A model generated the notes under the pieces. It ran no database searches. It saw only the letters and a list, made by a program, of their open reading frames with translations, and was not told where the DNA came from. Source: Bacillota bacterium (GTDB lineage: Bacteria; Bacillota; Sulfobacillia; Symbiobacteriales; ZC4RG38). Taken from it: a DNA stretch of 40,931 nucleotides. The stretch's first letter is position 1, and each line of letters opens with the position of its first letter. The position numbers were made by a program, and so were the translations under genes. Location of the stretch: contig JAKKUO010000017.1 of NCBI GenBank assembly GCA_021890795.1, positions 1 through 40,931 of the forward strand. The letters are read 5' to 3'. Below are positions 95-13,166 of this stretch, piece by piece.

Positions 95-766
95 CTAAAC
101 CGGCCCCACCGACAGGAGGCCGAATCCATACGCCTTGGCCGGCCCGATCCCGGTCACGAGGGCTTCCCGGAAGCGGTCGGCGTCCACGACCCGGAGGCGC
201 CCTTCGAATAAAACTCCCTCCAGGGTGATCCGCCCGGCGGGATGGCGGCCCTCGACACGGAAGGCGCTGCCGCCCAGTACCCGGACGTCTGCCAGGTTCT
301 GCACCGAGGAGAGCTCGGTCAACTCAAACCCCGCAGCCTCGGCCTTGCGCCGGAGCCACGCCACCGCCGCCTCCTCCTTCCGCAGCGGCACCCGCCGGCC
401 GTTGGGGTTCTCGCTGCGGATTTTCCGGGTGGCGTTGGCCAGGAGCCGAAACCGGAGCCAGAGTCCCGGGCGGATGGCCTCCAGGAGGCCGCTGATGTCT
501 TTCACGGCGCACCCCAGGGGGCCAGGAAGCAGGTATCCCTCAGGCAGGCGGCTCCAGTCGGGCTGCACCCGGGACTGCACCAGCACCATCACCGGACCGT
601 ATCCCCGGTGGGGTTCCACCCGGTAGAGCACCCCACAGGCGGCCCGGGCGGAGGGGCCGACCTCCGGGAAGGCCCGCATGATGGTGCGGTGCATCTCGTG
701 GCAGTCGGCCAGGTCCCGCTGTACCTCACGGCTCTGGGGGTTCAGCCGCAGCCGGCTCAGGTACAT
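95..766 (-). CDS. cas6e: Type I-E pre-crRNA endonuclease Cas6e (CasE)
   Basis: Cas6e cleaves pre-crRNA at the base of the repeat hairpin and stays on the 3' hairpin of the mature crRNA in Cascade. The 223-aa product has the family length. It carries the N-terminal D-C-H-E-M-H-R segment (residues 21-27), where His26 fits the catalytic histidine of Cas6e, and the C-terminal glycine-rich loop G-I-G-P-A-K-A-Y-G-F-G (about residues 207-217), both typical of RAMP proteins. Its start overlaps the cas5 stop by 10 nt, so the two are probably translationally coupled. It is the last gene of the cas3-cascade operon. Its likely substrates are the array at 11100-13082 and, by inference, the repeat-like hairpins in front of cas3. 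Confidence 0.95.
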   Translation of the reverse strand: MYLSRLRLNPQSREVQRDLADCHEMHRTIMRAFPEVGPSARAACGVLYRVEPHRGYGPVMVLVQSRVQPDWSRLPEGYLLPGPLGCAVKDISGLLEAIRPGLWLRFRLLANATRKIRSENPNGRRVPLRKEEAAVAWLRRKAEAAGFELTELSSVQNLADVRVLGGSAFRVEGRHPAGRITLEGVLFEGRLRVVDADRFREALVTGIGPAKAYGFGLLSVGPV

Positions 767-1473
767 GCAGTGGCTCCCCCCTCTCCTTGGGGCGCCTCCC
801 CGGGAAAGGGCACGTGACCGACCCGGACCGTCCGGTTGGCGTACATCCGGGCCGGGTTGACCCGAATCCGGTCTGGCCGGATGGCCTCACCGGCGGGATC
901 TTCCACGACAATCCGCAGGGTCGAAGGAGGTTCCTTGAGGGTCTGCCGGCCGCCCCAGTCCCACGGGTGCCGTTCCAGGGCTTCCTCGATGGAGTCGTAG
1001 GCGTCTGTCAGCCCCTCCAGCACAGGACGGGTGGGGATGCACGACTTCCGGCCCAGGTAAAGAGGCCAGCGGGGCGCCGCCAGGGCAGCGGCGCACCGGC
1101 GCAGCACCTCATCGGGACCGTCCAGCACGACCAGAAAGGCTGCGTCCTGCAGGTACGAACGGGGGGAGATCACCGTCGCCGGATCGTCAGGGCTCCCCCT
1201 CACGCCCCCGGACGCGATGGGCAGAACCCCGGTAATGGTCTGGAAATCCACGAGCCGAGTACCCGGATGCTCCACCCGGACACCCATCCGGAGTTGGGCA
1301 TCCAGTTCCTCCAGGCGGGGGTCTCCAACGGGGTAGCCAAGGGCGCAGCCCAGCAGCCCGACGATACCCGACTTCGAAGGCTCCTCCCCCGTGTCCCGAA
1401 CATCCCACCGGGAACGGAGGCCCCAGGACTGGAGCGGACCCTCCAGCCGCAGCAGGAGCAATAACTTACCCAT
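757..1473 (-). CDS. cas5e: Cascade subunit Cas5e (CasD)
   Basis: Cas5e is the RAMP subunit that caps the 5' handle of the crRNA in Cascade and contacts Cas8e. The N-terminus (MGKLLLLLRLEGPLQSWG, then S-R-W-D-V-R-D-T-G-x-E-P-S-K-S-G and G-L-L-G-C-A-L-G) is characteristic of Cas5 from type I-E systems. I chose the ATG at 1473 because the protein then begins exactly at the family's conserved first strand and the codon forms an ATGGGTAA overlap with the cas7 stop. The frame stays open upstream to 1560, but that part lies inside cas7. The product is 238 aa. It is co-transcribed with cas7 upstream and cas6e downstream. Confidence 0.94.
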   Translation of the reverse strand: MGKLLLLLRLEGPLQSWGLRSRWDVRDTGEEPSKSGIVGLLGCALGYPVGDPRLEELDAQLRMGVRVEHPGTRLVDFQTITGVLPIASGGVRGSPDDPATVISPRSYLQDAAFLVVLDGPDEVLRRCAAALAAPRWPLYLGRKSCIPTRPVLEGLTDAYDSIEEALERHPWDWGGRQTLKEPPSTLRIVVEDPAGEAIRPDRIRVNPARMYANRTVRVGHVPFPGEAPQGEGGATACT

Positions 1474-2692
1474 GTCGGGCCCTCTCCTCCAGGACCGCTG
1501 CCAACTGCCCGGTGAGGTCGTCCAGGGTATCGCAGAAGGTGGTGCCGGCCACCTCCACATCCCGGGTGGTGAACCACAGCCGGGCGATGCTTTGCAGGCT
1601 GAACTTCCGGGTGAGCTTCTCCACGTGCTCTTTCAGCTGCAGGATGGACTGCTCCACAAGGTCCCGGCTCCGGCCGCCCTGGTCTTCATCGCCCCAGTTC
1701 GTGCTCACCGGCACCGGCTTGACAAAGGCGTTAGCGTAGCTCACCGGGGTCGGGTACGGCCGAACTTCCACCAGAATGGCATCCGGAAGCTGGTGGGCGG
1801 CGAAGCTATTCTGCTTGCCGCTGGGGGTGGTGAAAACCGCGGCCTTCAGGAACGCCAGCACCGTCCGCCGGGCCACGGCCTCGGCCTCCCGGCGCGCCGC
1901 CGCATAGCGCTCCTGCTCCTCCGGCGTAGCCCCCGGCTCCGGCGCCGGCCCGGCGAGGTTATCCACCAGGCCGTCGAAGTCGATGGAGAAGTACTTGTAG
2001 TAGCAAGCGGAGTTGAACTCCACATCGCCGATCATGCCCGCGCCCCGCTCGTCCTCGGCTTCCTGGGGCCGGAGGAGATCGTCCACCGCGGTAAAGTAGT
2101 CGAACTCGTGTTCCATCTTGTGGGTGGAGATGGCGTGAGCCACCTGCACCGAGGCCTCCACATCCCGGAAGGCCTCGGAGGTGATCATCCGGCCAAAGAG
2201 CGCGATATCCGGCGTGATGGGCCGCCACCCCTTGCGGCCGATGCTCCGTTCAATATCCTTTGGCGAAACCTTCTTCGCCTCATCCGGAGAAGAGAGACCC
2301 TGCGCCACCTCAAAGAGGGAATCCACCACCGCCTCGATGTCCGCGGGGGAAAGGAACATCACCTGGGCCGTCTCACCGGCCTGCTGCTCCCTGCCCTCCT
2401 TGTTGCCAAAGCCGGAGGCCTTCTGGGCCACGATGGCAGCAATCTCTTCGGGGATCCCCCGTTCCACCAGCCGCTTGCGCACCAGCTCCGGCAGTTGCCG
2501 GGTGCGCACTCCAAGTTCGATCCCAAGCTCTGCAGCAAAGATGGGCGAACGGCGGATGGTGCGCTTCAGGCACTGGCTGGAGATCCGTGCCCGCCGCACA
2601 CCACCGAAGATGCAGTCTTTCGGGCTGCCGGTGTCGTCCCGGTTCAGGTTGGCCGGGGCATGGTTCTGCAGCATGTGGATCTCAATCAGCAT
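1466..2692 (-). CDS. cas7e: Cascade backbone subunit Cas7e (CasC/Cse4)
   Basis: Cas7e forms the six-copy helical backbone that holds the crRNA spacer and flips out every sixth guide base. The 408-aa product starts with the family signature (I-E-I-H-M-L-Q-N-H-A-P-A-N-L-N-R-D followed by R-R-A-R-I-S-S-Q-C-L-K-R), which is diagnostic for the Cse4/CasC family. The central part has the F-D-Y-F-T-A-V-D-D segment and a G-M-I-G-D-V-E-F-N-S-A-C-Y-Y-K-Y stretch, also typical. The start lies 3 nt after the cse2 stop and the end overlaps the cas5 start by 8 nt. It is slightly longer than the E. coli protein, without a break in the frame. Confidence 0.96.
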   Translation of the reverse strand: MLIEIHMLQNHAPANLNRDDTGSPKDCIFGGVRRARISSQCLKRTIRRSPIFAAELGIELGVRTRQLPELVRKRLVERGIPEEIAAIVAQKASGFGNKEGREQQAGETAQVMFLSPADIEAVVDSLFEVAQGLSSPDEAKKVSPKDIERSIGRKGWRPITPDIALFGRMITSEAFRDVEASVQVAHAISTHKMEHEFDYFTAVDDLLRPQEAEDERGAGMIGDVEFNSACYYKYFSIDFDGLVDNLAGPAPEPGATPEEQERYAAARREAEAVARRTVLAFLKAAVFTTPSGKQNSFAAHQLPDAILVEVRPYPTPVSYANAFVKPVPVSTNWGDEDQGGRSRDLVEQSILQLKEHVEKLTRKFSLQSIARLWFTTRDVEVAGTTFCDTLDDLTGQLAAVLEERARHG

Positions 2693-2695
2693 CCC

Positions 2696-3250
2696 TCACT
2701 GACCTCCCTCTGCCGCTACGGCCTGCGGCTCCTGGCTCGCCGCATCGCCGTGGAAGTAACTGCGGGCCCACCGCTTCTGGACGATCCGGTCGGGGTGCCC
2801 CCACCAGTTGAGGTCCAGGAGAAGCTGCACCCAGTCGACCCCCACCTGCTGGCTGGCCGCGAGCTTCACGGCCTGGCGCAGCCGGTAGGGGAGTTCGCCG
2901 GTTCCCCGCCGGCGGTCGTAATCAGCCTCCAGGAGGATCCGCATCCGGCTGTCCAGACCCTCCCGATTGGTCCGCTGCCGAAGGACGGCCATGGTGCGGC
3001 CAAAATCGCCGTCAACCGGCTTGTGGCCGTTGAGGGGGAACAAGGTGGCCACCAGGAAGAAGGTCTCTTCCGGGAACTGAGGCTCTGGGGGCAGGAGCCG
3101 GTAGAAGAGCCCGAGGGCGTTCCGGGCCGTGGCCAGCCGCTCACCGGCGCTCCGCCGGAGGACGGCCAGTTCGCCCCGACCCAGCGCCTGGAGACGCTCC
3201 ACAAACCGCTCTGCCTGCCGCCGGGCCTCCTGCCAGGGCCGTTCGCTCAT
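2696..3250 (-). CDS. cse2: Cascade small subunit Cse2 (Cas11e, CasB)
   Basis: Cse2 forms the dimer that stabilises the R-loop along the belly of type I-E Cascade. The 184-aa product is of normal length and mostly helical. It shows the family pattern: a basic N-terminal helix, the region G-E-L-A-V-L-R-R-S-A-G-E-R, an F-F-L-V-A-T-L-F-P-L-N core, then R-M-R-I-L-L-E-A-D-Y and the C-terminal V-D-W-V-Q-L-L-L-D-L-N-W-W segment. Its ATG overlaps the cas8e stop in an ATGA junction (3247-3250), so translation is probably coupled. It lies in the conserved place between cas8e and cas7. Confidence 0.93.
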   Translation of the reverse strand: MSERPWQEARRQAERFVERLQALGRGELAVLRRSAGERLATARNALGLFYRLLPPEPQFPEETFFLVATLFPLNGHKPVDGDFGRTMAVLRQRTNREGLDSRMRILLEADYDRRRGTGELPYRLRQAVKLAASQQVGVDWVQLLLDLNWWGHPDRIVQKRWARSYFHGDAASQEPQAVAAEGGQ

Positions 3251-4863
3251 CCTCTCCGCTGCCTCCTCTCACCTCGTCTCCGTTCCTTCCCTGCACCCTC
3301 GCCCCGCAGGCCGGCCACCACCCGGTGGAAGTGCTGCCGGGCCTGAACCTGCCGGGCCAGGGCGTCGGCATCGCTGTCCAGGGAATCCAGGGCCAGCTCC
3401 AGGGCCCGGCTGCCCGCCGCCTGAGCCCGATCCAGCCACTGGGCCGCCAGACGGGCCCGGGCGTCCAGATCCCCCGGGTCCAGGGCCGCGAGAGCGGGAA
3501 TGTAAAAGGTACGGAACTCATCGTGGAGTTCGGCCCAGTACGCCGCCACCGCGGTCTGGATCAGCCGTTCAAAGGCCCGCTGATTGCTCTTGCCGCCCCT
3601 CGGGTACGCCAGCTTGAGCGCGGACCGGAGGCCACCGGCCAGGCGCTCGGCGGTCTCGAGGGCCCGCTGCACCTGGCGGCCAGCGTCCGGCAGGGCCGCC
3701 ACCGCCTCTGGCAGGGCCAGTCGCTCGCACTGCCACTCAAAGACCTTGGCCTTGTCCACCCGCATCCCGTACACTTCCACGACCTCGTGGGTCGTCCTGG
3801 GGATGCGGCGTTCCTCTTTGAGGCGCCGGACCTGGGTCACCACGAGGGGGCGGGAATAGCTGATCCGGCCGTCCTCCGTCCGGTAGTCCTCCTTCCGGAG
3901 GAGCATGAGAGGGCCGATATCCCGCCATAGCTCCCGGTCCTCCCGGGGGCGGAGGGGCTGGCGCCGGTCCGACTCGACGTAGGCCACATTCGGGTCGATC
4001 CAGCCGTCGCCCTCCGCGTGCTTGTATCCGGGGCCATAGACAATCTCCCGGACCAGCACGGGGGACTCGACCCCGGAGTAGGTGCACCGCCCGCCCTCCC
4101 CCGGGATGAGCCGGACCCGCCGGGGCTGCCAGGTAAACCCCTCGCCCAGGGAGCGGCAGGGGCGCTCCTGGCCCGGGACCACCGGTTCCCGGGACCGCCA
4201 GGCCACCGGCGTGTCACCGGGCAGCCCCAGGGGCATCACGCAGCAGTTGAGCAGCAGCGTTTCAAACAGGGTCTCGCCCCGGACCAGGACGTACCAGGGC
4301 GGTGAACCGTTGACCGAGGGGGAATAGCCCCGGCCGCCAGCGGTCATGAAGGGGGCTATCGCCGTGAGGGCCCGGGCGCACACGGCCGGGGCGATGGCCT
4401 GCCCGTCCTCGTAGGCATGGTGGAAGTGAATCACGTTGGTGCCGGTGGGCAGGTGGAAGAAGAGGTTTGCGACGGAGACCGTGCTCTTGGCGTCATCCGG
4501 CCCGGGCGGGGACTGGAGGAAGGGCCATTCGGGATCAAAGAGGTCGAACCGCTGTTCCCCCACCTTCGCCACGTACCGCTCCACGGCCGCCATGTCAAAC
4601 CGGCCCTGCTTGTAAAGGTTGGTCAGGTCGGTCACCGTCCGCACCGGGAGGGCGTCCTGGATAAAGGCGATGAGGAGCCGGTAAAGGCCGAACTGGATGG
4701 GTGGAGCCGGGTCGTTGATGGCCACCAGGGCGGGTCTGCCGCTCCCCGTCACCCGGGGATTCTCCGCCCGCTCCAGGACCTCCAGAAGGCTCAGTTCCTC
4801 AACCCGGCCCGTCTGGTCCTCCACCGGAATCCAGCGTTCGTAGAGGACGTTGAACCTCGCCAC
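3247..4863 (-). CDS. cas8e: Cascade large subunit Cas8e (Cse1/CasA)
   Basis: Cas8e recognises the PAM, starts unwinding of the target DNA and recruits Cas3. The 538-aa product has the usual length for the family. It opens with F-N-V-L-Y-E-R-W-I-P-V, the standard Cse1 N-terminus, followed by the L-S-L-L-E-V-L and Y-R-L-L-I-A-F regions. A middle part contains P-F-M-T-A-G-G-R-G-Y-S-P-S-V-N-G-S-P-P, matching the conserved glycine-rich region near the PAM-sensing surface, and the C-terminal four-helix bundle follows. It starts 6 nt after the cas3 stop and ends in an ATGA overlap with cse2. Likely PAM: see the array entry, where spacer ends imply a PAM ending in G. Confidence 0.94.
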   Translation of the reverse strand: MARFNVLYERWIPVEDQTGRVEELSLLEVLERAENPRVTGSGRPALVAINDPAPPIQFGLYRLLIAFIQDALPVRTVTDLTNLYKQGRFDMAAVERYVAKVGEQRFDLFDPEWPFLQSPPGPDDAKSTVSVANLFFHLPTGTNVIHFHHAYEDGQAIAPAVCARALTAIAPFMTAGGRGYSPSVNGSPPWYVLVRGETLFETLLLNCCVMPLGLPGDTPVAWRSREPVVPGQERPCRSLGEGFTWQPRRVRLIPGEGGRCTYSGVESPVLVREIVYGPGYKHAEGDGWIDPNVAYVESDRRQPLRPREDRELWRDIGPLMLLRKEDYRTEDGRISYSRPLVVTQVRRLKEERRIPRTTHEVVEVYGMRVDKAKVFEWQCERLALPEAVAALPDAGRQVQRALETAERLAGGLRSALKLAYPRGGKSNQRAFERLIQTAVAAYWAELHDEFRTFYIPALAALDPGDLDARARLAAQWLDRAQAAGSRALELALDSLDSDADALARQVQARQHFHRVVAGLRGEGAGKERRRGERRQRRG

Positions 4864-4869
4864 CCCCGT

Positions 4870-7605
4870 TCACCCCTCCTCTCTGTGGTACACAAGGCCG
4901 TACACCGGGTGGTTCTCGATGACCACCGGCCTGCCTTCGGAAGACCGCCCCCGCCAGAGGCCTCCCTGGACCCGGAGCACCCGCACGCCGGGTAGCCACC
5001 CCGGGGCCGGGACCACGGGCTGGAAACCCGGCTCCGGCTCCACCCCGCTCAGCCACCAGGCAGGAATGCTGACCATCTGGAGGTGCATCGCCTGGAGCAC
5101 CTCCCGGCGGGGCGGCCGGCGGCCGGCCAGTTCTGCGGCGAAGGCGTCCCCCTCCGCCAGGAGCACCCGGACGGTGTAGTCACCCAGCCGGGTCTTTGCT
5201 GCCAGGTACCGGTCCGCGCCCTCGTCCGCCTCATCCCAGAGCCGTTCGGTGCTCTTCGCCGCCAGGCAGAAGAGGGAAGGGTCGGGTTCCGGCACCAGGT
5301 ACCGGAGGGCCTCGTCCGCCTCTTTCCGGATCCGTTCATGCCAGTCTTCTCTGGCTCTCCGGAGGACTTCGGCCGCCACCGGTAGGTCCGCCTGGGGAAG
5401 CGGGTCTTCGGAGTAGACCGCCTCGATGAGGGCCCGGATCTGGTCCGGGAGGCGAATCTCCATGCTGTCCCCTGCACCGGCAAGGGCCTGCAGGGTCCGC
5501 AGCAGGATGTACGGGTGATAGACGTTTTTCGTAGGGCCGAAGTCGAGATTCTCCGGACTGGGCCAGAAGATATGGAAGGTGGCCGGCCCGACCCGCTCGG
5601 GGCGGAAATGGCGGTGGAGCCGTCCGGCTCGCTGCAGCAGGAGGTCGATGGGGGCCGCTTCGGTGTACATCTCGTCGAAGTCAAGGTCCAGACTCTGCTC
5701 GATGACCTGAGTCGCTATGAGCACCGCCCGGGCTGGACGGACTGTCCGCCTGGGATCCCCTTCCGGCAGGGTCGAGCGGGCGTCAAACCGCTCCAGCACC
5801 GCCTCTTCAATTTCCTGCCGGCGCCAGGCCGGAAACCGGGCGTGGAAGAGCAGGAGTTCCACCGCCTCCGGGCCATCCCGGGGCAACAGCCGCTCCAGGG
5901 CCTGATAGATGCGCTGGGCCGAATCCACGGTGTTCGCGATGACGGCGATGCAGCCCCCCTCCCGGGCCCGGGTCGCCACGCACTGAGCCACCCCCTCCGG
6001 GTCGTCCAGGAGGCCGAAATGGTGCCGGACGGTAATCGACCGGACCTTCCGCTCCAGGGTGGCTGAGTCCCCTGCACCGTCGCCGAAGGGGATGATGTCC
6101 GGTCCCAGTTCCCGGACCGTTCCCTCCGGGTCCACCAGGGTGAGGAGCGGGTACGGTGCGGCATCCCCTGATCGGTCCGGCAGTTGCGCCCCGGGGGCGT
6201 AGGCAGCCGCCAGAGCGGCCCGGCGGGCCGCTGGTAAGGTGGCGGAGAGGAGGATCACCGGCACCCGGAGCACCCCGCACCACCGGAGGAGCAGGGTCAG
6301 GATCCGGTTCATGTACGGGTCGTAGGCATGGACCTCGTCAACGATCAGCACCTTGCCCGCCAGGGCGAAGAGGCGCAGGAAACCGTGGGCAACGTGCTGG
6401 ACGCTCCGGAGCGCCTGGTCAATGGTTCCGACGCCATAGGGAGCAAGAAGGCTGCGCTTGCGGGGCAGGAACCAGTCAAAGCTCTGAAGCCCGGCCTCGT
6501 CTGCCCCATGGATCTCGGGCACCGCGGACGGGATGGCGGCGTCCACCAGCCAGCTCGTGCCGTGGACCAGTTGGACCCCGACTGCGGCCTCCGGGTGATG
6601 TTGCCTCAGCCAGTCCCGGATCCGGCCGAACATCTGGTTGCTGGTGGCCGCTGTGGGCATCGCCATGTAGAGGCCGCCCGCGGCGCCCTCGCCGAGCCAG
6701 GCCGCCGCCAGATAGAGGGCCGCCTCGGACTTGCCGCCGCCCATCTGATCCTCAACGATGGCCAACCCGGGCCGCATGCCCTCCTGCACCAGCCGCTCCG
6801 CCAGCCGCTGGGCCGGCCGGGGCGAGGCCAGCCGGGGCCAGATGGCGGCGAAGGGGGGCTGGGGCTGCCACGGGAGAGGGCCGGAGAGCCCCACCCGGGC
6901 CACGGCGGCCTGAGCCACCTCCTGGCTCCGGGCGATGTAGTCCTCCCAGGACTCGCCGCGCCACCGCAGAGGAAACAGCTCCTCATTCGAGGCCAGCCAG
7001 TCCGCCAGCACCGTCAGGCCGGCCAGGAGGAGTCCGGCCGCGCTGTGGTGGCGGAAGACCGGCTGCCAGGGGGGCGGCTGGAAAACCTGCCGCACCGCCT
7101 GCACCAGTTCCCGCCGCAGCGCATCCCACTGGAAGGCCATCTCCTCCGGCTCTTCGGCCTCCGTTTCCGCCCCCAGGTCGCCGTGGTGCCCCCGCAGGGC
7201 CGATGCCACCGTGCGGGCGGACTCCTCGTTCCAGTGGCAGTCGTCGATTAGATGGTCAAGGAGCCAGGTAAAGGTGAGGACTTCGTGCCGGAAGCCTGGC
7301 TCCGGGTAAAGGAAGAGCCCCGCCGCCCGGAGCGGTTCGGCTAACTCCGAGACCTTGGCCTGGAAGAGGCCACTGCATTTGCCGAGGTCGTGGAGAGCCA
7401 CCAGGTAGGGGAGCCACCCCTCGGCCACCGCCGGGGAACAGCCCGCGGCCTCGGCGAAACGCTCCACCACCGGCCGGAAAACGGGTCCGGTGATCAGGGC
7501 CCGGGCCACGTGCCCGGCGTCGACAAGGTGGCAGAAAAGCGGGTGAAACGGGCTGCTCTTCGCCCAGATAAGACGCCAGATGGGTTGCGTCAGGACCCCG
7601 CCCAT
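4870..7605 (-). CDS. cas3: CRISPR helicase-nuclease Cas3 (HD + SF2)
   Basis: Cas3 is recruited by target-bound Cascade, nicks the displaced strand and degrades it processively 3' to 5'. The 911-aa product has both expected parts. The HD nuclease contains His21/His26, the H-D pair at 72-73 (L-H-D-L-G-K) and D202 in A-D-W-L-A-S-N. The SF2 helicase has Walker A M-G-G-G-K-S-E (288-294), D-E-V-H (423-426), S-A-T (454-456) and motif VI Q-R-A-G-R (658-662). All key residues are present, so it looks active. The ATG at 7605 follows a G-rich ribosome binding stretch (GGGTGGGG). It is the first gene of the interference operon, and its 5' leader holds repeat-like hairpins. Confidence 0.96.
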   Translation of the reverse strand: MGGVLTQPIWRLIWAKSSPFHPLFCHLVDAGHVARALITGPVFRPVVERFAEAAGCSPAVAEGWLPYLVALHDLGKCSGLFQAKVSELAEPLRAAGLFLYPEPGFRHEVLTFTWLLDHLIDDCHWNEESARTVASALRGHHGDLGAETEAEEPEEMAFQWDALRRELVQAVRQVFQPPPWQPVFRHHSAAGLLLAGLTVLADWLASNEELFPLRWRGESWEDYIARSQEVAQAAVARVGLSGPLPWQPQPPFAAIWPRLASPRPAQRLAERLVQEGMRPGLAIVEDQMGGGKSEAALYLAAAWLGEGAAGGLYMAMPTAATSNQMFGRIRDWLRQHHPEAAVGVQLVHGTSWLVDAAIPSAVPEIHGADEAGLQSFDWFLPRKRSLLAPYGVGTIDQALRSVQHVAHGFLRLFALAGKVLIVDEVHAYDPYMNRILTLLLRWCGVLRVPVILLSATLPAARRAALAAAYAPGAQLPDRSGDAAPYPLLTLVDPEGTVRELGPDIIPFGDGAGDSATLERKVRSITVRHHFGLLDDPEGVAQCVATRAREGGCIAVIANTVDSAQRIYQALERLLPRDGPEAVELLLFHARFPAWRRQEIEEAVLERFDARSTLPEGDPRRTVRPARAVLIATQVIEQSLDLDFDEMYTEAAPIDLLLQRAGRLHRHFRPERVGPATFHIFWPSPENLDFGPTKNVYHPYILLRTLQALAGAGDSMEIRLPDQIRALIEAVYSEDPLPQADLPVAAEVLRRAREDWHERIRKEADEALRYLVPEPDPSLFCLAAKSTERLWDEADEGADRYLAAKTRLGDYTVRVLLAEGDAFAAELAGRRPPRREVLQAMHLQMVSIPAWWLSGVEPEPGFQPVVPAPGWLPGVRVLRVQGGLWRGRSSEGRPVVIENHPVYGLVYHREEG

Positions 7606-7641
7606 TCGAACCCCACCCAGGAGAAGATGACGTGTCTGCCT

Positions 7642-7718
7642 CCAGCACCCCCACTATGGTGGGGAGAGTTCCCGTGTCAGAGACCAACCCGGTCCACCCC
7701 CCAGGTGACGGGGGAGCC
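7642..7718 (-). ncRNA. Putative crRNA-like regulatory RNA (CreR-like), pseudo-repeat/pseudo-spacer
   Basis: In the sense of the cas3 transcript, two degenerate copies of the array repeat flank a 20-nt pseudo-spacer. The first (7718-7690, including the final G) matches 17 of 29 repeat positions. It keeps a 5-bp CCCCC/GGGGG stem and seven of eight bases of the crRNA 5' handle (GTGGACCG against GTGAACCG). The second (7669-7642) matches 16 of 28 and keeps the 6-bp stem CCCCAC/GTGGGG exactly. Cas6e cutting at the usual place would give a 49-nt RNA, 7697 to 7649. The pseudo-spacer (7689-7670) starts GGTTGGTCTCT and matches 10 of its first 11 bases to plus-strand 7753-7763, next to an AAG PAM. By analogy with Cas-regulating RNAs, it could guide Cascade to repress this promoter. 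Function is inferred. Confidence 0.65.
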
Positions 7719-7740
7719 ATTCACTACGGGTTCGGTTCCA

Positions 7741-7769
7741 AGTATGTAAAAGGGTTGTTCTCTCTACAA
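7741..7769 (-). promoter_or_regulatory. cas3: Candidate sigma-A promoter for cas3-cascade
   Basis: A minus-strand -35 box TTGTAG (7769-7764) and -10 box CATACT (7746-7741) are separated by exactly 17 nt. The match to consensus is modest (3/6 and 4/6). The position fits: transcription would start near 7734, about 130 nt before the cas3 ATG, so the leader would include both repeat-like hairpins. Just upstream are two short dyads (CTCGG/CCGAG and TTGT/ACAA), possible operator sequences. Confidence 0.45.
7750..7763 (+). promoter_or_regulatory. Predicted Cascade target (PAM + seed) in the cas3 promoter
   Basis: The plus strand reads AAG (7750-7752) followed by GGTTGTTCTCT (7753-7763). The pseudo-spacer encoded at 7689-7670 reads GGTTGGTCTCT and then diverges. 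The only mismatch in the first 11 bases is at position 6, and the next is at 12. Both are guide positions flipped out of pairing in type I-E Cascade. The site lies between the -10 and -35 boxes of the candidate promoter, and a full 32-nt footprint would cover the -35. Short complementarity would favour binding without Cas3 cleavage. Confidence 0.6.
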
Positions 7770-7834
7770 CTCGGCCAAACCGAGAATGATGTGAAATAGC
7801 TTCCAATTCCTCCGACCCTCGCATCCACACCAAG

Positions 7835-8164
7835 TCACACGAATCCGCCACTCTCCTCCGGCGAATGAGGGGTCTCGCTTTCCTCCTCCCGGCGAGGCAC
7901 CCGAATGAGACACAGTCCTTCAAACTCCTCCACCACCCGGCTGGTCTCCCCCCAGGTGCGGATCACAAATCCCTGCTCGTTGGCCGCGGTGTGGATCAGG
8001 ATGGAACCGCCGTCCCGCAGCCCCTGGCAGACCTTGTCCCACAGCCGGTCCCGCACGGCAGCGGACACGGTGCCTACGAAGACCCCTGTCCTGGGTTCGA
8101 GCATCCAGCGGGTGAGCTCCCCCCGAAGACTGGCCGGAACCCGTTCAAGCACCAGGACCACCAT
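7835..8164 (-). CDS. cas2e: CRISPR adaptation protein Cas2e
   Basis: Cas2 forms the central dimer of the Cas1-Cas2 integrase that inserts new spacers. The 109-aa product matches the type I-E Cas2 family (E. coli YgbF-like): an N-terminal M-V-V-L-V-L-E-R-V-P-x-x-L-R-G strand and helix, a central G-V-F-V-G-T-V-S-A-A-V-R-D-R-L-W segment, and G-S-I-L-I-H-T-A-A-N-E-Q-G-F. I set the start at the ATG at 8164, where the family begins; the open frame runs further up but only inside cas1. It overlaps cas1 by 20 nt. A 229-nt intergenic region separates it from cas3, so the adaptation and interference genes probably have separate promoters. Confidence 0.93.
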   Translation of the reverse strand: MVVLVLERVPASLRGELTRWMLEPRTGVFVGTVSAAVRDRLWDKVCQGLRDGGSILIHTAANEQGFVIRTWGETSRVVEEFEGLCLIRVPRREEESETPHSPEESGGFV

Positions 8165-9101
8165 GGCTGGTGTCCCCCTCCTGGCCAAAGTTGCGGCCGC
8201 CCCACACCGGGCCGGTTTCCGGATCCCACAGCCCGCCCGGCAGGGCGTCGTCGATGTCGTAGTCGCCGGGCTCCTCCTCCTGGGGGGTGCCCAGAATCCG
8301 CTGGATGTCCGGAATGATCCGGGCCAGGAGCCGGGTCTCGGCAAAGATGTCCCGGCAGGCGCGCCGAACCCGGGTCTCCAGATCCTCCGTACCCTTGGCC
8401 GTCTCCCGGAAGGCCACCGGGATGGTGATCTCGGTCTTGTACAGGTCCGCCACGTCGTAGACGAAGGAAAGCATTTTGCCGGTGTGGATGAAGCCAAGCG
8501 CCGGTGAGTACCCGGCGGAGACAATCGCTGCGTGGCAGATCCCGTAGAGGCAGCTGTTGGCCGCGGAGAGGGCCCGGTTTACCGGGTCGGACTTCTTCCA
8601 CGATTTCCGGTTGTACGAGCGGCCTTGCCACGGAATCCCGGTCTCCTTGCTGGCCCTGGCATAGGCCTCTCGTACCCGGGCGCCCTCCAGTCCCCGGAGT
8701 TGCCGGAGCGTCAAAGTAGGAGACAGCGGTTCCCGGAACCGGACCTCGTACATCCGCCGGACCACCTGCATGTGCAGGACCGGATCCGCCCACAGCCGCG
8801 CCTGGTGAAGCAGGTTGGCGGCGCTCCGGGTCTCGCCCAGTCCCTGCGCGTAGAACCGGACGCCTTGCTCCCCACACCAGATGGCCAGGCAACCGTTCTC
8901 CGCCAGAGCGGCGACCGCGGCATGGGTGATGGTCGTGCCGGGCCCCAGCAGGAGGACCATCAGGCTGGCACAGGGGACAGGAACACTGCCCCGGGCGTCG
9001 TGGAGGACAATGGCGTTATCCTGCCGGTCGATCCGGCAGTGTTCCACATACAGGTAACTCCAGCTGTCCCGGACCTTAGGAAGGATGTGCAGGTCCTTCA
9101 T
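8145..9101 (-). CDS. cas1e: CRISPR integrase Cas1e
   Basis: Cas1 catalyses integration of prespacers at the leader-proximal repeat. The 318-aa product has the type I-E sequence pattern, including S-D-P-V-N-R-A-L-S-A-A-N, G-F-I-H-T-G-K and Y-D-V-A-D-L-Y-K. The metal-binding triad is intact: Glu139 (in L-E-G), His206 and Asp219. The C-terminus ends in an acidic and glycine-rich tail that overlaps cas2 by 20 nt. The ATG at 9101 lies inside the end of the exonuclease reading frame (26-nt overlap), which ties the three genes into one unit. Unlike the E. coli order, cas1-cas2 lie upstream of cas3 and next to the array trailer. Confidence 0.95.
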   Translation of the reverse strand: MKDLHILPKVRDSWSYLYVEHCRIDRQDNAIVLHDARGSVPVPCASLMVLLLGPGTTITHAAVAALAENGCLAIWCGEQGVRFYAQGLGETRSAANLLHQARLWADPVLHMQVVRRMYEVRFREPLSPTLTLRQLRGLEGARVREAYARASKETGIPWQGRSYNRKSWKKSDPVNRALSAANSCLYGICHAAIVSAGYSPALGFIHTGKMLSFVYDVADLYKTEITIPVAFRETAKGTEDLETRVRRACRDIFAETRLLARIIPDIQRILGTPQEEEPGDYDIDDALPGGLWDPETGPVWGGRNFGQEGDTSHGGPGA

Positions 9102-9775
9102 CGCCCGAGCCTCCCGTCCCAGTGCTCCCCTGCGGGCCGGTTGCGCCCACTCGCTGGCGGGCTGTCAGTGCCGGCCGCTCCCTTGATATGTGTCCCAACT
9201 CTGTCGCCAGGGCCGGCAACCCTACCAGGTCCTGAGCGTTGTGCGCCAAGATCCACTCCCGGTCCGCCGGATCCCGGCTCCGGAGCCATCGCCGGTAGAC
9301 CCCGGGCACGGCGCCGCCACGACTCGGCTTCTCGAGGGGGATGCCCACGCAACCCAGTACCGTCTGCAAGCGGCAGTCGGGCAAGGGCCCAAGCCCGGCG
9401 AGGTGCCGGCGCACCTCCGGCAAGAGATCCACGTGCGGAAGTGAAGACCACATCAAACCCGTGGCGAGCAGCCCGGATCCGCAGGAAGGGCAGGTCAAAC
9501 TGCGCTCCGTTGAAGGTGACAACCCCGCTGAAGCGGCGCACCCGGGCCGCCACGGACCGGAGGAGCTGCCCCTCTTCCGCCGGGCTTTCGGCAAACCACT
9601 GCTCCAGCGCTCCACCCCTCGGGCCTGCGTAGAGAAGCCCCACTGCGATCACCCGAGCCCGGAACGGATCGAGACCGGTGGTCTCGATATCCAGGTAGAC
9701 CGGGGATGGGCCAACTACCGCGGAACACCAGGCTGGGAGCGAGAGCGGGTCGACACTGCGGACCACCTGGTACAC
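9076..9775 (-). pseudogene. YprB-like DEDD 3'-5' exonuclease next to cas1, with +1 frameshift
   Basis: This is an RNase H-fold exonuclease read in two frames. The first part (9775 to about 9440) has the motif D-I-E-T-T-G and F-N-G-A-Q-F-D-L-P-F-L. The second part (about 9440 to 9076) continues the family pattern with H-V-D-L-L-P-E-V, a P-G-V-Y-R-R-W-L segment and the last catalytic motif H-N-A-Q-D-L-V-G-L. Skipping one base near 9438-9445 joins them into about 232 aa with all four acidic positions. The start is a GTG at 9775, 7 nt after GGAGG. The end overlaps cas1 by 26 nt. DnaQ-type exonucleases trim prespacers in some I-E systems, and Cas2-DnaQ fusions are known, so a role in adaptation is plausible. 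The shift could be a sequencing error, real decay or recoding. Confidence 0.7.
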
Positions 9776-9857
9776 GGCGCTGCCTCCAGACAAGTCCGAT
9801 GTACCCTCATCGTAAGTCACTTGAAGGTACAAATACTGACGCGCGCCTGTGTTCGGT

Positions 9858-10868
9858 TCACCGGATTGCCCGAGGGGTGGGAGAAGTAGCGGCCGAACTG
9901 CTGTAAACCGCAGCCATTCTGCGAATCTCTTCAACCACCATCTCCCGCAGGGCCGCCGGCGCCAGCACCTCGGCACTGCTGCCGAACTGAAGTAGCCACC
10001 GGGCCACCTCGGCGAGTCCCGCAACCTTCAGCTTGAGCACAAGGGATCCTTCCGGACCCTCCTGCAGTTCCTGGCTCGGGTGCCAGCGGCGCTCCCGGAT
10101 GTACCGGGCGGCCGGCGGCCGGAACCGGATCTGCACCTCCACCGGGTCACCTCCGTGGAGTTCCCAGGCGGTCTCCAGGAACTTCCGAGCGGAGAAGCGG
10201 GGCTGTACAGTGAACCGGCGACCGGTCAGGCGCAGGTCCCGCATCCGGTCCACGGCGAAGACAAGGATCCGCCGCCGCCAGTGGCAGCGGCCGATGACAT
10301 ACCACGCACCGCCCCGGTAGTGCAGATGGTACGGGTCGATGTACCGATGCCGCCAGGCATCCCGGTAAGCCGAGTAATAGTGGACCGCCACGGTCTGCCG
10401 GGAGACGAGGGCTTCCTGGAGGATTTCCAGGGCGGCTGTGACGTGCGCCTCGTCCCCCCGGATGGCTGGGAGGCCGAAACTCAGGTCCCCCTGGCCCTGG
10501 GGATCCACGGTGACAGCCTCCGGCATGGAGGCTACCAGGCGGTCAATAAACCCTCGCACCAGCCCTTCAAATGCGGACCCCGCCACGAGCCGCAGGAGGT
10601 GCGCCGCTGTCTGTAGGGCAGCCACCTCCATGGGGCTCACGGGCGGGGCCGGAAGTACGAAATCGGTGCGGGTGTAGTAGTAGCCACGCCTGCGGGGGTC
10701 GTAGGCCAGGGGAGCGCCTAACTGGTCCCGAAGCAGTTCCAGATCCCGTTGAACCGTCCTGACGCTCACTTCTAGCTCCTGGGCCAGGGTCCGGGCATTT
10801 GGAAAACGGCCGCTGCGGATGCGGGCAGCATCGATGAGTTGCAACCGCGCCATGAGCGGCCGGTTCAT
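9858..10868 (-). CDS. HTH-WYL domain transcriptional regulator
   Basis: The 336-aa product has a DeoR-type winged HTH at residues 1-60 (A-R-T-L-A-Q-E-L-E-V-S-V-R-T-V-Q-R-D-L recognition region). A WYL domain follows at about 140-215 (I-D-P-Y-H-L-H-Y-R-G-G-A-W-Y-V-I-G-R), then a WCX-type C-terminal domain. WYL domains sense nucleic-acid or nucleotide ligands and often control phage-defence loci, including CRISPR-Cas. The ATG at 10868 sits 7 nt behind AGGAGGGGG and gives the expected family N-terminus; an ATG-less extension to 10895 is less likely. It is the first gene after the array trailer and lies 82 nt ahead of the exonuclease start, on the same strand as the cas genes. Control of the cas operon or of itself is inferred. 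Confidence 0.9.
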   Translation of the reverse strand: MNRPLMARLQLIDAARIRSGRFPNARTLAQELEVSVRTVQRDLELLRDQLGAPLAYDPRRRGYYYTRTDFVLPAPPVSPMEVAALQTAAHLLRLVAGSAFEGLVRGFIDRLVASMPEAVTVDPQGQGDLSFGLPAIRGDEAHVTAALEILQEALVSRQTVAVHYYSAYRDAWRHRYIDPYHLHYRGGAWYVIGRCHWRRRILVFAVDRMRDLRLTGRRFTVQPRFSARKFLETAWELHGGDPVEVQIRFRPPAARYIRERRWHPSQELQEGPEGSLVLKLKVAGLAEVARWLLQFGSSAEVLAPAALREMVVEEIRRMAAVYSSSAATSPTPRAIR

Positions 10869-11099: not shown

Positions 11100-13082
11100 C
11101 TCCCACCCACACAGGGGTGGGGACGACAGGTAGAATCCGACGCCGGCCGCCTCCGTCGACGGTTCACCCCCCACAAGCGTGGGGACGACCGTGACGTTCA
11201 GCTTGTTCGCCACGCCGGGGTCAGTTCACCCCCACACGCGTGGGGACGACGTTGGGCTACTGATCCGCAGTACGTGTCTAAGCGGTTCACCCCCACACGC
11301 GTGGGGACGACTGAATGGCCCGGGCCACGACCCGCACCGGCCATGGTTCACCCCCACACGCGTGGAGACGACGGCCCGGTACGACGCCTACAGAGCCAGC
11401 GGCGCGGTTCACCCCCACACGCGTGGGGACGACCGGGCCAGCTCCTCCCCAGGCATGGGGAACACCGGTTCACCCCCACACGCGTGGGGACGACAGCCAG
11501 GGATGCGGCGGGACGTGGCCCAACTCCGGTTCACCCGCACACACGTGGGGACGACTGCGGTGTCACTTAACAACGGGGAGGCGGCAACGGTTCACCCCCA
11601 CACGCGTGGGGACGACCTCCGGGATAACTGGGATACGGTCGGCCCGGTCGGTTCACCCCCACACGCGTGGGGACGACGGATTCTGCTCCTCCACGAGGAG
11701 GAGCGTTCCCGGTTCACCCCCACACGCGTGGGGACGACTGCAGGTCACGCCGAACATCCGCACGGCTATGCGGTTCACCCCCACACGCGTGGGGACGACG
11801 AGCCTCTTGATGAGAGGCGGCAGGCCATTAACGGTTCACCCCCACACGCGTGGGGACGACGGCACGACATCCACGGTTACGGCGAGGACCTGCGGTTCAC
11901 CCCCACACGCGTGGGGACGACTACAACACCCCCGGCCGTCCGCCGGAGGCAAACGGTTCACCCCCACACGCGTGGGGGCGACGCAAGCCGCCGCATCACG
12001 TTCTCCTCGGTGAGCGGTTCACCCCCACACGCGTGGGGACGACATCAGGGCGTCCCTGGTCCGCACCCGCCGGATCGGTTCACCCCCACACGCGTGGGGA
12101 CGACTCGTAATCAGTCCGGCTGACTGCTGGCGCTGCCGGTTCACCCCCACACGCGTGGGGACGACGGGCTGGCCGCGACCGAGTTTGCTGGGCGCTTCGG
12201 TTCACCCCCACACGCGTGGGGACGACCGGTCGATGGTGTCGGCGCTGGCCTGAAGCCACGGTTCACCCCCACACGCGTGGGGACGACCGGAGTTCCGCCA
12301 GGAGCTCCTCGGTGGTGTACGGTTCACCCCCACACGCGTGGGGACGACGCCTCGAGCGGCAGCAGTCGCTGCTCCCCGGCCGGTTCACCCCCACACGCGT
12401 GGGGACGACCGGAACGGCACGTCTGAACGCCGGATGGCCTCCGGTTCACCCCCACACGCGTGGGGACGATGGCGTCTGGGATTACCGGCCGCTGCTTGAG
12501 TCCGGTTCACCCCCACACGCGTGGGGACGACTATGGCAGCAAACTCATCGTCGCCAATCGGTACGGTTCACCCCCACACGCGTGGGGACGACGATCTGGG
12601 CGATGAACGCATCGTACTCCGCCTTCGGTTCACCCCCACACGCGTGGGGACGACTTAATAATCGGCCGGGCGAAGGCGGCCCCAAGCGGTTCACCCCCAC
12701 ACGCGTGGGGACGACCCGCCCCCGACCCCCAAGCAATCGGGGCAGGTCGGTTCACCCCCACACGCGTGGGGACGACTTCCCCGGCGTCAATCACGCCGGG
12801 GAGCTTCTCCGGTTCACCCCCACACGCGTGGGGACGACTTCCACGTCTCCAGGAGACCGGCCGCCTCGGCCGGTTCACCCCCACACGCGTGGGGACGACC
12901 CCGTGTGCTTGTGGCCGGTGCTCTTGTCGAACGGTTCACCCCCACACGCGTGGGGACGACCAGGTCCAGGACCCACTCCCGGCGCCGGCGGCCGGTTCAC
13001 CCCCACACGCGTGGGGACGACGTGTCCAGTCGAGTGGCACCCTGCCGCCTCCCCGGTTCACCCCCACACGCGTGGGGACGAC
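11100..13082 (-). CRISPR. Type I-E CRISPR array, 33 repeats and 32 spacers
   Basis: The unit is a 28-nt repeat (plus strand GGTTCACCCCCACAC then GCGTGGGGACGAC) and mostly 33-nt spacers; the spacers before 12627 and 12811 are 34 nt. The base before the plus-strand repeat is C for 31 of 32 spacers. The functional repeat is therefore best read as 29 nt ending in G in the crRNA sense, with 32-nt spacers and a PAM ending in G, as in E. coli. The hairpin CCCCAC-GCGT-GTGGGG leaves an 8-nt 5' handle GTGAACCG. Degenerate copies sit at the low-coordinate end (11100-11127 matches 21/28; 11161 has an extra C). So the trailer is there and the leader is at 13083, giving minus-strand transcription. Variants occur at 11345, 11528, 11955 and 12443. 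Confidence 0.98.
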
Positions 13083-13166
13083 ACTTCCCAAACCGGCTCT
13101 GCATCGGCATCCATCAGCCAAAACCCCAGTTCAAGTGTCAAAACGGGCGATATCACATGCATGTGA
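13083..13166 (-). promoter_or_regulatory. CRISPR leader with candidate promoter
   Basis: This sequence directly upstream of the first repeat is the likely leader. A perfect -35 TTGACA lies at 13141-13136 (minus strand). Seventeen nt on there is a weak -10 (GCTGAT, 13118-13113), which would start transcription about 24 nt before the array. A perfect 12-bp palindrome CACATGCATGTG (13155-13166) lies just upstream of the -35. This is a natural position for a factor that controls array transcription or bends the leader during spacer integration. The protein that binds it is unknown. Confidence 0.5.

Follow-up and report, generated by a model that had tools for sequence, protein, structure and literature searches.

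In the analysed DNA stretch of 40,931 nt (the window), a complete type I-E CRISPR-Cas locus lies on the minus strand, with cas1, cas2, an intergenic gap, cas3, cse1, cse2, cas7, cas5 and cas6e in this order. Every gene scored above its NCBIfam cut-off, and Cas3 was identified through HD and helicase domain models.

95..766, minus strand: cas6e (TIGR01907)
757..1470, minus strand: cas5e (TIGR01868)
1466..2692, minus strand: cas7e (TIGR01869)
2696..3250, minus strand: cse2/casB (TIGR02548)
3247..4863, minus strand: cse1/casA (TIGR02547)
4870..7605, minus strand: cas3 (TIGR01587, TIGR01596), HD and DEVH motifs intact
7835..8164, minus strand: cas2e (TIGR01873)
8145..9101, minus strand: cas1e (TIGR03638)
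11100..13083, minus strand: main CRISPR array, repeat GTCGTCCCCACGCGTGTGGGGGTGAACCG, 61-62-nt period

The gap between cas2 and cas3 measures 229 nt. Repeats of the main array carry the handle GTGAACCG, and degenerate repeats were seen at its low-coordinate end. The 29th repeat base was G in 30 of the 32 repeats, so the PAM is expected to end in G, as the sequence-only reading had deduced from the array. One spacer of this array, TTCGACAAGAGCACCGGCCA, also has an AAG-flanked 11/11 seed match on the minus strand of the window at about 19254, possibly by chance.

Outside the main array, between cas2 and cas3, we found a degenerate mini-CRISPR of two repeats and one spacer (7718-7641, minus strand), with the following parts.

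7690..7718, minus strand: degenerate repeat 1 (psi-R1, R1 below), GGCTCCCCCGTCACCTGGGGGGTGGACCG, with a GC-rich stem and the 8-nt handle GTGGACCG
7670..7689, minus strand: pseudo-spacer (the guide), 20 nt, GGTTGGTCTCTGACACGGGA, between the two repeats
7641..7669, minus strand: degenerate repeat 2 (psi-R2, R2 below), array stem CCCCAC/GTGGGG retained, handle lost (3/8)

The hairpin and near-identical 8-nt handle previously ascribed to R1 were confirmed, the handle being identical to that of the array at 7 of 8 positions and the stem being changed. The 20-nt pseudo-spacer and the second degenerate repeat were likewise recovered, and the stem of R2 (TCCCCAC....GTGGGGGTG) is that of the array. Both parts of a mature type I-E crRNA are kept, the handle in R1 and the hairpin in R2, and the repeats of the window decayed in a non-random way, with the 5' arm of R1 and the handle of R2 lost while the R1 handle and the R2 stem were kept. 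Among the three other loci with both repeats, L056 and L060 showed the pattern of the window, and L087 retained both handles. With two diverged repeats and a 20-nt spacer, against 33-34 nt for the spacers of the main array, the element is not an ordinary array. Crude similarity scores showed that neither R1 nor R2 alone was unusual within the GC-rich window; the case depends on the combination of handle, stem, seed and PAM. The stem and 5' arm of R1 are strongly diverged, and in the best fold of the 84-nt element R1 pairs with R2, so that processing by Cas6e is not assured.

The guide matches a site 64 nt upstream of it, within the same gap. The site and the promoter-like sequences around it are as follows.

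7750..7752, plus strand: PAM AAG, the PAM in 3/3 strict guide-target pairs (see below)
7753..7772, plus strand: target protospacer GGTTGTTCTCTCTACAACTC, seed part 7753-7763 GGTTGTTCTCT
7741..7769, minus strand: TTGTAG-17-CATACT, a weak promoter candidate that the target overlaps and that scores the same as the average shuffle
7653..7680, minus strand: CTGACA-16-CATAGT, the gap's closest match to a promoter consensus, located within the mini-CRISPR

When the guide was aligned with the target, AAG-GGTTGtTCTCTc at 7750-7764 of the plus strand, 10/10 bases matched at positions 1-5 and 7-11, positions 6 and 12 were mismatched, and nothing systematic was found past position 12. Both the seed match directly after AAG and its two mismatches thus agreed with the sequence-only reading. 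AAG plus the seed, with position 6 left free, occurs a single time in the 2.79-Mb genome, at this target. The earlier estimate of 1 in 8 million per position amounts to ~6e-5 over the gap, and in a permutation 29 of 200,000 composition-matched guides (1.5e-4) had a match next to AAG within the 116 nt upstream of R1. By these results, the probability of a chance origin is about 1e-4 or less. None of ~81,800 other 11-mers of the window matched an AAG site upstream of R1, such matches being confined to the guide and to the AAG sites themselves. Near matches in the host genome with CAG or AGG in place of AAG occurred at about chance level, among them a full 11/11 seed match with PAM CAG at L083 1500 (G000 contig 35), which possibly lies just upstream of a gene.

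The claim that the target lies between the -35 and -10 of a cas3 promoter was not borne out, since TTGTAG-17-CATACT scored 5.62 against a shuffle mean of 5.62; CTGACA-16-CATAGT (7680-7653) also fell within the shuffle range of the scoring used. Neither for the window target nor for that of the related genome G051 did any promoter stand out from shuffles, and a -35/-10 assignment at the window target is therefore only possible. The window target is best described as upstream of cas3 in the cas2-cas3 gap, a clear promoter location being seen in the relative G452.

Guide-target pairs were then sought in a locus sample built from Cas3 and Cas7 relatives of the class and the phylum, comprising 65 type I-E loci with cas genes. 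The scan was independent of the window: any cas-intergenic position after a handle (at most 2 mismatches) and hairpin was taken as a guide start, and an AAG-flanked site in cas intergenic DNA with 10/10 matches at positions 1-5 and 7-11 as a target. Three matches were obtained from 564 guide starts, in the window, L056 (G051) and L087 (G452), and 3/3 lie at mini-CRISPRs. Their seeds differ (GGTTGnTCTCT, GGTTGnAGGAT and TGTATnGCTGT, respectively), each target is changed correspondingly, and all three pairs have their mismatches at positions 6 and 12. GGTTG is common to the window and G051, whereas positions 7-11 differ on the guide and the target sides.

In G051, whose Cas3 is 51% identical to that of the window, the mini-CRISPR and its target lie together in the cas3-cse1 gap (guide GGTTGCAGGATC, target AAG-GGTTGtAGGATa). 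In G452 (guide TGTATGGCTGTG, target AAG-TGTATtGCTGTa) the mini-CRISPR sits in the cas6-cas1 gap, and the target is 5 kb away in front of cse1, adjoining a strong cse1 promoter, TTGACA-17-TATGCT, which scored far above shuffles and whose -35 is overlapped by the PAM. The same scan gave no matches with the control PAMs GAA and TTC or with guides shifted by 3 or 11 nt, and guides shifted by 7 nt gave two matches only, both between copies of one array repeat. Similarly, 982 ordinary array spacers had no such targets in cas intergenic DNA. The sequence-only reading had proposed a comparison of seed and target in relatives, and in G051 and G452 changed seeds were indeed accompanied by matching AAG-flanked targets. 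Judged from these sequences, guide and target co-vary between genomes, and the matched pairs are independent support for this form of self-regulation, which has been described only recently.

Outside the strict count, G148 carries a mini-CRISPR between cas6 and cas1 whose 13/14 match in the cas3-cse1 gap immediately precedes a strong promoter, TTGACA-18-TACCTT; it was excluded for a mismatch at position 2 and the PAM AAA, and is probably a fourth locus of the same kind. A lone degenerate repeat in G264 (L085 9901-10220), with 5 mismatches to the array, lies upstream of cas3 and 9 kb from the array. Its seed match in the gap covers only 7 nt (GATTGTG after AAG), which is suggestive and was not counted; the repeat may be a decaying or weak creR. 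A second guide in G051, GAGGCGGAACG, was rejected as having no target, its match being the other arm of a large hairpin. This inverted repeat, GAGGCGGAACG ... CGTTCCGCCTC (L056 1918-1985), follows right after the mini-CRISPR and perhaps serves as terminator of that element or as attenuator ahead of cse1. No mini-CRISPR near cas3 was found in G048, G290, G240 and others, and no strict guide-target pair in G048, G290 and most of the 65 loci. In G001, of the same genus, the gap DNA was matched nowhere, the type I-E contig ending before cas3, and a scan of genome contigs returned mostly distant Cas3 relatives.

Several known systems resemble the element. Haloarchaeal CreA, of the CreTA modules in H. 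hispanica and H. hubeiense (PMC8501985, PMC9458426), likewise has two degenerate repeats flanking one pseudo-spacer and a target that lies upstream, in the promoter region, and experiments showed that PAM-adjacent pairing at positions 1-5 and 7-11 is critical for repression while 6 and 12 are dispensable (PMC8501985). The window differs from it in that creT is missing, the neighbour is cas3, and the system is of type I-E with the PAM AAG, that of CreA being type I-B with TTC. Cas-regulating RNAs with partial matches, which the sequence-only reading had described as repressors of cas promoters, are named for types I-B, I-E and V-A as CreRs that mediate autorepression (PMC13131331, PMC12737573), and this repression is relieved by crRNA competition or by effector loss to anti-CRISPRs. 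According to both reviews, type I-E CreR autorepression was published by Liu et al. 2023 (Cell Host Microbe). Set beside CreRs as these reviews describe them, the window shares a CRISPR type named for them, a mini-CRISPR that lies in the cas locus but apart from the array, a partial match to putative cas regulatory DNA and the lack of a toxin gene, and differs in its 20-nt guide, in the position of the element, which sits in the cas3 leader with its target upstream, and in a cas3 promoter that is only a candidate. As outlined in PMC9458426, scaRNA with Cas9 in Francisella novicida is also a repeat-derived RNA that represses a chromosomal promoter region through short pairing, although that system is type II, acts on lipoprotein genes and lacks Cas6 hairpins.

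The element could instead be the decaying remnant of a former cas2-cas3 array, with a seed match that arose by chance or is the functionless trace of a self-targeting spacer. Full arrays directly upstream of cas3 do end in degenerate repeats in G061, G452, G337 and G467. We nevertheless consider this origin improbable, because chance accounts for the window match at a level of ~1e-4 or less, the strict pattern recurs at two further loci and only at mini-CRISPRs, the decay spared the very handle and stem of a crRNA, and the mismatches sit at the two positions shown to be dispensable. In the G337 array (L088 8215-8440), the trailer-end repeats beside cas3 contain long G runs, perhaps assembly artefacts.

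A CreTA-type addiction module, in which the guide would repress a small creT toxin RNA or peptide and not cas genes, has the same guide anatomy, seed rule and PAM arrangement as creA (PMC8501985). On the minus strand, however, only ~30 nt separate the target from R1, which leaves no room for creT, and the next gene is cas3; reading along the plus strand, one meets the cas2 3' end ~50 nt past the site. The G452 target, moreover, clearly belongs to the cse1 promoter, so we regard such a module as very improbable. Least credible is a guide without any role, where the hairpins serve purely as structure, either as an attenuator or by offering Cas6e a site in the cas3 leader, or where a protein operator is formed by the dyad GTTGTtctctctACAAC in the target (7754-7770, 5-bp arms, 7-nt spacer), for which a WYL-WCX-HTH regulator gene nearby is an example candidate, because a search of the gap found no terminator-like site, the targets of the two relatives are not the same dyad, and the 10/10 AAG-adjacent match here and in both relatives would be left unexplained.

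We conclude that the mini-CRISPR of the window is very probably a creR-type element that serves its own type I-E system by acting on transcription in the direction of cas3. This is the simplest reading in view of the CreA pairing rule, the CreR reviews, the degenerate repeats typical of ectopic mini-CRISPR elements, which guard against recombination (PMC9458426), and the finding that in the type I-B system of H. hispanica spacers no longer than 24 bp bring about repression but no interference (PMC10989794), which the 20-nt guide fits. The intact effector and adaptation genes were also counted in its favour. The creR-like interpretation of the sequence-only reading thus gains support from the co-variation, the CreA rule (PMC8501985) and the reported type I-E CreRs (PMC13131331). 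Since the pairing rule is experimental and type I-E CreR autorepression is published, the window represents a well-supported new case of a known kind.

The anatomy, the PAM-adjacent seed match with its uniqueness and the matched pairs in relatives are features of the DNA itself, and from them we infer Cas6e processing, Cascade loading, repression, derepression and the sensing of free Cascade or anti-CRISPRs. Transcription of the mini-CRISPR would run along the minus strand, either jointly with cas3 or before it, and Cas6e would cut both hairpins to yield a ~49-nt crRNA-like RNA starting GUGGACCG, made of the 8-nt R1 handle, the 20-nt guide and the R2 hairpin. Loaded into Cascade, this RNA would direct binding to the AAG-flanked site through guide positions 1-5 and 7-11 only. 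A partial R-loop of eleven positions could block transcription towards creR and cas3 and would be too short to recruit Cas3 for cleavage. Rising free Cascade would then lower cas transcription, and Cascade drawn off by crRNAs or anti-CRISPRs would relieve the repression. It is likely, as far as the sequences tell, that the guide RNA directs its own CRISPR complex upstream of cas3 and lowers the system through cas3 silencing.

A more specific form of this creR reading, which we hold as tentative and rather doubtful, is that creR makes up the leader of the transcript under its control and that a shortened Cascade binds without cutting. A single RNA starting near the target would carry both the guide and cas3, and therefore guide maturation by Cas6e would also trim the cas3 mRNA. 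The 20-nt guide would correspond to 32 minus two 6-nt Cas7 steps, giving the shortened complex. If so, the operator, the guide and the mRNA of the effector would together make up a single unit that limits itself.

With these results, a bacterial clade that has been little studied contributes probable type I-E cases of RNA-guided autorepression of cas genes, and natural guide-target co-variation replaces the reliance on a single case. A simple rule (hairpin and handle, AAG, positions 1-5 and 7-11) selected only mini-CRISPRs in 65 loci. The position of the element shifts within the operon, from cas2-cas3 to cas3-cse1 or cas6-cas1, while the targets remain before cas3 or cse1, and Cascade regulation in these organisms is now open to reporter assays.

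Two neighbouring genes were also observed in the window. An HTH-WYL-WCX regulator gene (9858-10862, minus strand) lies upstream of cas1, and a relative of it is found directly before cas3 in L060. Between this gene and cas1, an RNase_H_2/PolB-like 3'-5' exonuclease gene (9106-10024, minus strand) is split over two frames, the two ORF pieces matching profile positions 1-83 and 87-163, and is either a frameshifted pseudogene or the product of a sequencing error. A stretch resembling this split gene sits directly upstream of cas3 in L055.
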